A DNA stretch of 64,000 nt from Oscillospiraceae bacterium (GTDB taxonomy: Bacteria; Bacillota; Clostridia; Oscillospirales; CAG-272): NCBI GenBank assembly GCA_015065005.1, contig SVRE01000005.1:1-64000 (forward strand). Reading direction: 5' to 3'. The position numbers and the translations under genes were made by a program. Shown in pieces: positions 12,999 through 33,704 of this stretch; the stretch's first letter is position 1, and each line of letters begins with the position of its first letter. The notes under the pieces were generated by a model. The model made no database searches and had not been told where the DNA came from. It was given only the letters and a program-made list of their open reading frames with translations.

Positions 12999-13016
12999 CT
13001 TAACAGATAGATTTTA

Positions 13017-13115
13017 CAGAGTAAACATATGTGCGTTAAGTGTTTAGAGGACGGGGAGTTGCCTCTTTAACGAAAACCATTGGCGGTTGCGGTACATATG
13101 TTGCATCCCGCTGGA
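13017..13115 (+). promoter_or_regulatory. Tetrahydrofolate (THF-I) riboswitch
   Basis: CAGAGUAAACAUAUGUGCGUUAAGUG...GGGGaguugCCUC...CGAAAACCA..CGGUUGCGGUACAUAUGUUGCAUCCCGCUGG matches the THF motif; precedes folT. Confidence 0.9.
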
Positions 13116-28718: not shown

Positions 28719-28746
28719 TGAGCTTGCAGCGTATACTGCAAGCTCT
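28719..28746 (+). terminator. Rho-independent terminator
   Basis: GAGCTTGCAG-cgtata-CTGCAAGCTC followed by a T-rich run. Confidence 0.75.
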
Positions 28747-28826
28747 ATTTTTCTTTATTCACAATCATTACATTAATCGGTTTATTTTTCTGTATTCACA
28801 ATTATAACGCTAATCGGTTTGCTTTT
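28746..28826. repeat. Imperfect direct duplication of the 3' end of the SLOG gene (37-bp offset)
   Basis: TATTCACAAT...TAATCGGTTT at 28756-28783 and again at 28793-28820. Confidence 0.7.
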
Positions 28827-29123
28827 CTTTTTGGCATAATCTATTGTGTATTTCGTTCCTCTTGATTTTTTGTCCCATATAACAAGTATACTGTCTGCTA
28901 TATCTATCATTTCCTCATTACGCTTCAAGGGTGCGCCCTTGCCATATAAATTGTATTTTGGACGCAATACTAATTTAGATAAATTATGCTTATCCGCATA
29001 TTTTTCTGCAAGAGTGTCAATCCCTTTGGCACCACCGCTAATAATAAGCTCAACATCATTTGAAATGTAATTTTCCAAATTAAAATCAGTTATTGTTCTT
29101 GACCCTGCGATCATTAATTTCAT
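28782..29123 (-). CDS. SLOG/DUF2493-like nucleotide-binding family protein
   Basis: MKLMIAGSRTITD...ELIISGGAKGIDTLAEKYA...YNLYGKGAPLKRNEEMIDIADSILVIWDKKSRGT. Confidence 0.82.
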   Translation of the reverse strand: MKLMIAGSRTITDFNLENYISNDVELIISGGAKGIDTLAEKYADKHNLSKLVLRPKYNLYGKGAPLKRNEEMIDIADSILVIWDKKSRGTKYTIDYAKKKSKPISVIIVNTEK

Positions 29124-31407: not shown

Positions 31408-31463
31408 TTAAGTGTTACAACAATAAGCTGAAATAGCTTTTCTAACCAAAAATTAATTCGTAG

Positions 31464-31483
31464 GGCGGGGGCTTGCTCCCGCC
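31464..31483. repeat. GC-rich intergenic hairpin (REP-like)
   Basis: GGCGGGGGCTTGCTCCCGCC. Confidence 0.6.
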
Positions 31484-31499
31484 GCTTTTGATAAATTGA

Positions 31500-31525: not shown

Positions 31526-31592
31526 TGAATGGGCGAGAAAAAAGATATTTTCGCCTTTTTTTTGTTTGGGTTTGAACTGATGCGTTTTAATC

Positions 31593-31777
31593 ACGGCAAA
31601 GCCGAGTATGAAATCAATGCAAAGCATTGTATGGAATCCGTCACAAGACGGTATGGAATCAACACAGGGTGTTGGATGGAATCAAGCCGCAGAAGGAAAC
31701 ATCTACGGTGATGCCATGCGCCTTCGGCAATTCCATACACGCAAAGCGTGATGCCATGCCAAGCCTGCGGCTTGGAT
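31593..31777. repeat. Array of mini-hairpins separated by ATGGAATC / GATGCCAT spacers
   Basis: GGCaaaGCC, AATGCaaaGCATT, CCGTCacaaGACGG, CGCCttcgGGC-type, CACGCaaaGCGTG, AAGCCtgcGGCTT; TATGGAAT on the left is complementary to ATTCCATA on the right. Confidence 0.75.
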
Positions 31778-31810
31778 AAAAAACGACAGGCCGAAACCTG
31801 TCGTTTTTTG
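31777..31810 (-). terminator. Terminator of tRNA-Arg
   Basis: AAAAAACGACAGG-ttt/ccgaaa-CCTGTCGTTTTTT, directly after the tRNA 3' end. Confidence 0.85.
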
Positions 31811-31885
31811 GCCTACCCGATAGGATTTGAACCTACGACCTACAGAGTCGGAGTCTGTCGCTCTATCCAGCTGGGCTACGGGTAG
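31809..31885 (-). tRNA. tRNA-Arg (anticodon CCG)
   Basis: CTACCCGTAGCCCAGCTGGATAGAGCGACAGACTCCGACTCTGTAGGTCGTAGGTTCAAATCCTATCGGGTAGGCCA; full cloverleaf, encoded CCA. Confidence 0.95.
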
Positions 31886-31974: not shown

Positions 31975-32030
31975 ATAATTAATTTAAGTAAAGGGCGAAT
32001 TATGCCCAAAATTAGAAGGAGATGCAAATT

Positions 32031-33704
32031 ATGTTATCTGACATCGAAATTGCACAGTGTGCAAAGCTAAAGAGAATTAATGAAATTGCTGATCAAATCG
32101 GTCTTTTGCCTGAGGAATATGAGCCTTACGGTCACTACAAGGCAAAGATTACAGACGCATTCTTGAACAGAATGGCGGACAAGCCAAACGGTAAGCTTGT
32201 TCTTGTAACAGCCATCAACCCAACCCCGGCAGGTGAGGGTAAAACAACAACCTCTGTTGGACTTGGTATGGCTATGAATAAAATAGGTAAGAAAACCATT
32301 ATCGCTCTTCGTGAGCCTTCCTTGGGTCCTGTATTCGGTGTTAAGGGTGGCGCTGCAGGTGGCGGTTATTCTCAGGTTTTGCCAATGGAGGACATTAACC
32401 TTCATTTTACAGGTGACTTCCATGCAATTACAACCGCAAACAATCTTTTAAGCGCAGTTATTGACAACCATATTCAGCAGGGTAACGTGCTCGGTATCGA
32501 CCAAAGACGTATCCTCTTCCCACGCGTTCTTGATATGAATGACAGGGCTCTTCGTAATGTAGTAGTTGGCTTGGGTACAAAGGTTGACGGTGTTCCAAGA
32601 GAGGACCACTTTATGATTACCGTTGCCAGTGAAATTATGGCTATCCTTTGCTTGAGCGAATCTATTGATGACTTAAAGGCACGTCTTGGCAAAATTCTTG
32701 TGGCTTACAAATATGACGGCTCCCCTGTTTACTGTCGTGACCTTGGTGTTAATGGCGCTATGGCAGCAGTGCTTAAGGATGCCTTGAAGCCAAACCTTGT
32801 ACAAACAATAGAGAACACACCGGCACTTATCCACGGCGGCCCATTTGCAAATATCGCACACGGCTGCAACTCGGTTCGCGCTACAAAGCTTGCATTAAAG
32901 CTTGCTGATTATACAATTACTGAGGCTGGCTTCGGTGCTGACCTTGGCGCTGAAAAGTTCTTCGATATCAAGTGCCGCTTTGCAGGCTTGAAGCCGGAGT
33001 GCGTTGTTCTTGTTGCAACCGTTCGTGCGCTTAAGTATAACGGCGGTGTTCCCAAGGCAGAGCTTGTTAACGAAAATCTTGAAGCACTCAAAAAGGGTGC
33101 GGTTAACCTTGAGGCTCACATTGATAACCTTCAAAAATACGGTGTACCTGTTGTTGTTGCAATCAACCGCTTCGGCACAGATACAGAGGCTGAGCTTAAG
33201 GCAGTTGAGGAAATGTGTATTGCCAAGGGTGCTGATTTTGCATTGTCAGACGTATTTGCCAAGGGCGGTGACGGTGGTATAGACCTTGCAAACAAGGTTG
33301 TTGCCGCTTGTGAAAAGGAAAGCAATTTCCATGTGCTTTATCCCGATGAAATGTCAATCAAAGATAAGATTATCACAATAGCTAAGGAGATTTACGGTGC
33401 TGCTGACGTTAAGTTTGATGCGGCTGCCTCTAAGGCAATTGCTGAATTTGAGGCACTTGATCCTGAATACTCTAAGTTCCCTGTTTGTATGGCAAAGACA
33501 CAGTATTCCTTGTCTGATGACCAAACAAAGCTTGGCAGACCTACAGGCTTCACCCTTACCGTTCGTGAGGTTAAGCTCTCTGCGGGCGCTGGCTTTATCG
33601 TAGCTCTTACAGGCTCTATTATGACAATGCCGGGCTTGCCAAAGGCTCCTGCCGCACTTAAAATTGACGTTGATAATGACGGAAAGATAACAGGACTGTT
33701 CTGA
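32031..33704 (+). CDS. fhs: Formate-tetrahydrofolate ligase
   Basis: [43 protein letters not shown]. Confidence 0.97.

Follow-up and report, generated by a model that had tools for sequence, protein, structure and literature searches.

An inverted mini-hairpin array behind a tRNA-Arg gene of an Oscillospiraceae bacterium, probably a gene-less copy of a group of small IVP-linked mobile elements of Clostridia

Between a methyltransferase-like gene and a tRNA-Arg gene of Oscillospiraceae bacterium (assembly GCA_015065005.1, contig SVRE01000005.1) lies a run of short hairpins, which raises the question of what kind of element this is and what ties it to the tRNA. The window analysed is the first 64,000 nucleotides of the contig. 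The initial annotation placed the array at 31593–31777; it is indeed found there, but the element reaches further, its full extent being 31592–31809 with the terminator that ends at 31809 included. Where at least six short stems had been noticed there are eight mini-hairpins once weak stems are counted, joined by 8-nt linkers that read TATGGAAT in the left half and are reversed in orientation in the right half (ATTCCATA/ATGCCATG). The parts, from the far end to the tRNA, are:

31568–31584, minus strand: tRNA T-arm-like remnant (GGGTTTGAAC...) at the far end of the element
31592–31604, plus strand: outermost weak mini-hairpin CA-CGGC(aaa)GCCG, with TTTTAAT before it (from sequence and fold)
31607–31614, plus strand: linker TATGAAAT
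31615–31629, plus strand: mini-hairpin CAATGC(aaa)GCATTG, where the covariance-model match begins
31630–31637, plus strand: linker TATGGAAT
31638–31651, plus strand: mini-hairpin CCGTC(acaa)GACGG
31652–31659, plus strand: linker TATGGAAT
31660–31674, plus strand: mini-hairpin CAACAC(agg)GTGTTG
31675–31682, plus strand: linker GATGGAAT
31683–31692, plus strand: "mid", a 10-nt half-hairpin CAAGCCGCAG that pairs with the loop and 3' arm of hp0 (31765–31774); AAGGAAA follows
31700–31710, minus strand: mini-hairpin CATC(tac)GGTG with one G-T pair, opening the right half in inverted orientation (from sequence and the architecture of relatives)
31711–31718, minus strand: inverted linker ATGCCATG
31719–31728, minus strand: mini-hairpin CGCC(ttc)GGC, outer pair lost (from sequence and relatives)
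31730–31737, minus strand: inverted linker ATTCCATA
31738–31750, minus strand: mini-hairpin CACGC(aaa)GCGTG (from sequence)
31751–31758, minus strand: inverted linker ATGCCATG
31759–31775, minus strand: hp0, CCAAGCC(tgc)GGCTTGG, the hairpin closest to the tRNA; AT follows
31778–31809, no strand assigned: intrinsic terminator (A-tract, stem, T-tract) in the gap between array and tRNA-Arg, on paper bidirectional
31809–31885, minus strand: tRNA-Arg(CCG), a host gene with the element on its 3' side

Every stem and spacer named in the initial annotation is present in the sequence, the stems being located at 31638–31651 (CCGTCacaaGACGG), 31738–31750 (CACGCaaaGCGTG) and 31759–31775 (AAGCCtgcGGCTT within CCAAGCCtgcGGCTTGG), and its picture of a multi-branched, cruciform-like, non-coding element with inverted left and right spacers holds. 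Rfam has no family for the array; at the gathering threshold its only matches in the window are two tRNAs and a THF riboswitch. From comparison with relatives, we consider this feature to be probably a non-autonomous, gene-less copy belonging to a group of small mobile elements of Clostridia, for which we use the name T-type IVP-array elements. The complete form would consist, in order, of a tRNA, an intrinsic terminator, hp0, at least three mini-hairpins with 8-nt linkers, mid, at least three oppositely oriented mini-hairpins, an outward promoter and an IVP gene. The window copy shows the inverted hairpin halves, a linker of the form YATNNNAT, the mid:hp0 pairing and the position 3' of a tRNA terminator. 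No IVP gene was found at its far end (best E 0.2), which makes it a gene-less member.

Taken as a single strand, the array region folds better than 200 of 200 shuffles both as RNA (z -3.5) and, more strongly, as DNA (z -6.4). Arrays of at least three mini-hairpins numbered 126 in related loci, many of them fetched for holding such arrays, against 2 when the same loci were simulated with a Markov model. Stem pairing was assessed on 164 distinct units excised by their linkers alone, the structure not being consulted: stem positions 2–5 form Watson-Crick pairs in 85–93% of cases, with 27–42% expected from the columns, and the closing C-G pair is nearly fixed. When 32 elements are aligned, 93.5% of the cells form pairs, compared with 30.5–36.7% when the partner is slid by 1–3 columns. 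Both-sided changes occur in 22 of 37 pairs, a level that 0 of 500 shuffles reached, and the cells with such changes number 176 against 51.8 in shuffles; G-U pairs are rare relative to double changes. The pairing of mid with hp0 is seen again in relatives, where at least eight different sequences form it, among them CAAGCCGCAG/CTGCGGCTTG, CAATCCGAAG/CTTCGGATTG, CATTGCGAAAG/CTTTCGCAATG and CAAACTGAAG/CTTCAGTTTG; one set of these pairs was chosen for exact complementarity and another allowed two mismatches. Independently of that selection, 90% of the mid:hp0 cells of the alignment pair, with a covariation score of 0.180 versus 0.069 when shuffled. Homologs and compensatory stem changes, whose absence the initial annotation had named as its refutation, both exist, as seen in the pattern search, the linker-cut units and the alignment.

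Is the conserved form DNA or RNA? GNA triloops form very stable DNA mini-hairpins. In left halves with YATNNNAT linkers the triloops are R-N-A rather than T-N-Y by 32 to 2, and in the inverted right halves, read on the same strand, the ratio is 3 to 23. The loops follow linker polarity. In our reading, selection acts on the hairpin as an oriented unit of DNA and not on a single RNA; template switching alone would invert the loops (PMC8794818). Wobble counts in the 164 units tilt slightly to the linker strand (G-T 21, A-C 12), a lean that single-stranded RNA would also give and that counts against the DNA reading.

BLAST found the window element once in its own genome and gave no match among phage or plasmid records. 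We do not take this for uniqueness, since the stems differ between relatives: the BLASTn search against the host genome, proposed at the outset, returned the one copy, while the covariance model detects relatives across the genus and beyond. The linker-pair pattern matched 12 of the 28 other genomes of the genus and one genome outside it, the latter by chance; written backwards it matched none of the genomes scanned. In a genome-wide pattern scan, true arrays were essentially confined to metagenome-assembled genomes of Clostridia/Oscillospiraceae, mostly from the ruminant gut. A second linker, YATATCAT, occurs in the same architecture and extends to other families of the order. With matches counted below E 1e-10, the covariance model, built from the 32 elements, detected the element in 25 of 29 genus genomes, reaching dozens of matches in a single genome; these counts include both-strand and partial matches. 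The window copy scores 130 bits (E 1.5e-30), being itself one of the 32 model-building sequences; the other matches in its genome are weak or partial. Across the order 26 of 295 genomes matched (reversed control, 0), a few of these being chance matches in coding sequence, and class-wide the covariance model matched 8 of 391 genomes, six of them in other orders. The data are sequences only, and most of the genomes are metagenome assemblies that are often broken at these repeats. Among viral contigs there were 94 pattern matches, with true arrays, all beside tRNAs, in only three contigs, two of which share the same sequence; a phage origin is therefore not supported. Word matches within the open PMC library returned no description of arrays of this kind.

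Arrays with other linkers (ATTTCAC, ATTCA/ATTTA, CTAAA) were also seen in the genus (L016, L172, L178, L191, L192, L201, L202). At L182 and L192, in two species and with different hairpins, mini-hairpin arrays lie directly 5' of the start codon of mnmG (gidA).

The position of the relatives is informative. A tRNA gene lies within 75 nt of hp0 in 43 of the 70 T-types that have 110 nt or more of further sequence, and all 44 tRNAs found, which represent 14 isotypes, are on the opposite strand with the 3' end toward the array; most tRNAs have no such element. This 3' siting supports the suggestion in the initial annotation that the adjacent tRNA marks an integration-type site. Stems resembling the window terminator recur at other tRNA loci. 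In one genome (G218), tRNA-Val and tRNA-Gln (L443 and L444) are followed by copies of a 215-nt block that are 99% identical, the flanks being unrelated, and the element therefore disperses. Arrays from different families and orders reach 91–95% identity over about 240–260 nt, and L415 and its counterpart from another order, L489, share 95% identity over 237 nt. Whole units have been gained or lost between elements (L407/L408). At the orthologous fhs/tRNA-Arg site, 25 genomes hold TATGGAAT, YATATCAT or ATATCAC arrays, another repeat, or none or a terminator only. T-types thus target the 3' side of tRNAs and are dispersed.

A tRNA-Val locus was compared between two congeners (G198 and G135); one of them has, precisely at the 3' end of the tRNA, a complete element of about 1 kb. 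The difference could be an insertion; a deletion would also account for it. The insert consists of a terminator, an inverted hairpin array with mid/hp0 pairing, a promoter, an ORF of 117 amino acids and a further ORF whose putative product is a membrane protein. No target-site duplication, which together with terminal inverted repeats marks the MITEs of DDE transposases, was seen at the boundaries of L443/L444 and L407/L408. Duplication of an attachment site by a tRNA-targeting integrase, a tyrosine recombinase that would leave a direct repeat of the tRNA 3' end at the far junction, seems improbable: the T-arm remnant differs from the local tRNA beyond the T-loop, and it is absent at L408, the clearest insertion. 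Similar remnants stand beside T-types at several tRNA loci. A recurrent T-arm-like module, AAAAAAGATATTTTCG...GTATGRATTCGAACYC, occurs at L018, L220, L443, L444 and window 31541–31584, at the far end or between tandem T-types.

The 117-aa protein is a member of PF05635, 23S_rRNA_IVP (Pfam E 1.2e-23), and of the four-helix bundle family TIGR02436 (NCBIfam E 1.9e-26), with 2rld as a solved structural relative; the protein of complete copies is an Avd-like (S23/IVP) four-helix bundle of about 115 aa. No catalytic motif was recognised in it, and PADLOC assigned it to no defence family. PF05635 was detected in 27 of the 29 genomes of the genus, in 44 of 57 relatives and in 0 of 14 control genomes. 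By phmmer, an IVP gene lies at the far end of 13 of 86 T-types, the majority, window copy included, having none adjoining. A candidate arrangement with lone left halves around a longer gene was discarded, since these were mostly chance matches and the gene was found at the far end instead. When 30 IVP loci were picked by protein score alone, an inverted mini-hairpin array stood directly upstream at 24 (counted by eye), the mean number of hairpins near IVP genes being 5.7 upstream versus 2.7 in the downstream control. ARAGORN detected a tRNA no more than 600 nt away at 14 of the 28 IVP loci with enough sequence, in every case on the same strand. The six of the 30 loci that have no array form one clade, with simple flanking inverted repeats in its place. 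These repeats (L500, L505, L506, L508, L520, L524) read ATGCAGAATGCAGAA / TTCTGCATTCTGCAT and similar.

A tree of 39 IVPs was built with IQ-TREE, linker labels having been assigned by us beforehand. The 14 linker classes need 13 changes on it, which is the minimum (shuffled mean 29.2; 0 of 200 as low), a clustering inflated by near-copies within a linker class. Inside the superfamily to which the window element belongs, the IVPs of TATGGAAT arrays form a clade (99/100) nested among those of YATATCAT arrays, with hosts of different families intermixed. Linker sequence and IVP lineage co-segregate perfectly. The arrays are structured and dispersed elements with strong covariation and a fixed architecture, and they are tied to IVP. 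Several of the other-linker arrays mentioned above match linkers beside other IVP lineages.

The genome that holds the window has IVP elements of its own: an intact one at tRNA-Leu with ACTTCAC linkers, a second at tRNA-Leu with ATTTCAC linkers that is cut by a contig end, one at tRNA-Trp with a GTGAAGAG-type repeat, and a damaged copy with CTTCATT linkers. A repeat GTGAAGAGTGAAAAGTGAAGAGG behind tRNA genes (L530, on contig C42 of this genome, and L221, L231 and L233), with an IVP gene in L530, is a second IVP-linked repeat type, also seen at the fhs/tRNA-Arg site in other species; in it the terminator stem seems to take the part of hp0. Where the outermost hairpin starts with CAA, a -10 element follows at 16–18 nt in 8 of 21 cases and in none at control spacings, and in a subset of copies the -35 element overlaps the array end. 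An outward promoter as a general trait was rejected, as only some T-types have it and the window copy does not. In some subtypes (CTTCATT) the array abuts the IVP start codon; such arrays may be transcribed.

Which other explanations could account for this locus? The initial annotation had suggested a search for a RAYT/IS200-type transposase, that is, a repeat of the REP/BIME/REPIN type moved in trans by a RAYT (Y1 HUH) enzyme. The likeness is real: extragenic palindromes in inverted pairs, dispersed, with an oriented tag and hairpin, single-strand folding and non-autonomous copies that outnumber the gene (PMC2817692, PMC3116915, PMC3733652). Two inverted copies forming a unit correspond to the left and right half-arrays, and the genome holds a RAYT-like Y1 transposase gene with HIH and YIFLNPQNW motifs (contig C76, L186:1019–1528, minus strand). 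We nevertheless consider this explanation very improbable. The lead failed in that no Y1 transposase of the genus is flanked by a TATGGAAT-type array, and none was matched at all in array-holding G003, G011, G015, G024 and G025 (90–97% complete). There is no GTAG/CGTC tag, no conserved palindrome and no RAYT flanked by two repeat copies; instead, YATNNNAT linkers bound several different hairpins with a C-G closing pair, and the linkers are the conserved part, whereas stem sequence is free and varies between copies with both-sided changes. Genus RAYT loci carry GTAG-REPs (three loci of G006) or no palindromes or arrays, siting is at tRNA 3' ends, and the gene that co-segregates is of another family, IVP. 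A GTAG-tagged REP-like palindrome, GTAGGGCGGGGGCTTGCTCCCGCCGC, does occur at window 31460–31484 (plus strand), downstream of the methyltransferase-like gene; since palindromes of this kind stand beside RAYT-like genes in G006 (L389–L391), a separate REP/RAYT system seems to be present in the genus. Equally doubtful is the idea that functionless palindromes are kept perfect by template-switch mutation only. Template switching creates and maintains perfect stems and yields double changes without wobble intermediates (PMC8794818), in keeping with the few G-U pairs here, and it may contribute to the double changes. It also inverts loops (PMC8794818), however, and the loops here are strictly oriented; linker conservation, mid:hp0 pairing, tRNA siting and the IVP link would be left unexplained.

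Two further possibilities are unlikely rather than remote. The array might serve the host, as an insulator between tRNA terminator and promoter or as a site for a nucleoid protein, with IVP a non-selfish binding protein; the fixed position between terminator and promoter and the recurrent -35 made by the array end would fit. The turnover at the fhs/tRNA-Arg site in the 25 genomes, the near-identical copies across orders and the many tRNAs lacking a copy argue against it. An RNA element, namely a transcribed multi-hairpin RNA acting as a sponge, an mRNA 3' end or a reverse transcriptase template as in diversity-generating retroelements, is likewise improbable. It draws on the likeness of IVP to Avd, the partner of a reverse transcriptase and its template RNA (PMC10053308), on the good folding of the window strand as RNA and on the slight G-T excess. 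Because loop polarity flips, however, half of the hairpins on any one RNA would be of the opposite form; relative to neighbouring genes the arrays occur in both orientations, and G-U pairs are rare next to double changes. A CsrA-like sponge RNA, suggested by the GGA in the linker, was dropped because YATATCAT and other linkers have no GGA and the right half is inverted.

Among the closest known systems are the intervening sequences (IVSs) of 23S rRNA with an S23/IVP ORF, for example in Coxiella and Leptospira, which have long been suspected to be mobile and whose function and origin are unclear; a Xanthomonas IVP homologue is a toroidal pentamer (PMC4990558). Both they and the T-types are small stem-loop elements beside a structural RNA and share the PF05635 protein family. 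The IVSs, however, interrupt 23S rRNA and are excised by RNase III, whereas T-types lie behind tRNA terminators and have a multi-hairpin array with cognate linkers. The window element has the tRNA-Arg terminator on one side and an intergenic region on the other, no rRNA was recognised by Rfam in the window, and the copy has no S23/IVP ORF, although relatives with the same array encode one. PF05635 proteins also resemble Avd of diversity-generating retroelements in sequence and structure (PMC10053308); no reverse transcriptase or template/variable repeat pair was found at the loci examined. Mitochondrial double-hairpin elements and related palindromic repeats are likewise mobile short hairpins, but they are organellar and have one or two hairpins; no cognate gene is known for them.

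Returning to T-type IVP-array elements as the preferred reading, we propose that IVP, an oligomeric four-helix bundle, would bind the linker and hairpin unit of its own element. Recognition would be mainly of DNA, single-stranded or as a cruciform, for two reasons: the loops take their polarity from the linkers and change it from one half of a strand to the other, and TATGGAAT and YATATCAT arrays lie between terminator and promoter, outside both transcripts. Such binding may help the element to be copied or inserted at tRNA 3' ends, may control the IVP promoter, or may do both: with the array between terminator and promoter and the -35 overlapping its end in a subset of copies, IVP could control its own expression and also bring the element DNA together for copying. 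Copies lacking the gene would be moved in trans, as proposed for REPINs and RAYTs (PMC3116915), by analogy and not by membership; the window copy may have been mobilised in this way or have lost its gene. More tentatively, PF05635 proteins might confer sequence specificity on a new class of transposable elements: each would bind its own folded-DNA array and direct copying 3' of structural RNA genes (tRNAs here, 23S rRNA in the classical IVSs), and most copies would be gene-less passengers.

The function of S23/IVP and the origin of 23S IVSs have been unsettled for decades (PMC4990558), and PF05635 is here tied to a precise nucleic-acid partner. Since linker sequence follows IVP lineage one to one, a binding assay would come with built-in negative controls in the form of swapped linkers. 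The elements would make up a large class of small mobile DNA, so far unrecognised, that is sited at the tRNA 3' ends of gut Clostridia, and would explain intergenic arrays that break assemblies and appear at integration hot spots.

Two other features of the window were recorded. A THF riboswitch aptamer lies at 13015–13115 (plus strand; 84.7 bits), and the same window has a formate-THF ligase gene (32022–33704). A 37-nt tandem repeat in two copies (28746–28828) is found at the end of a small ORF.
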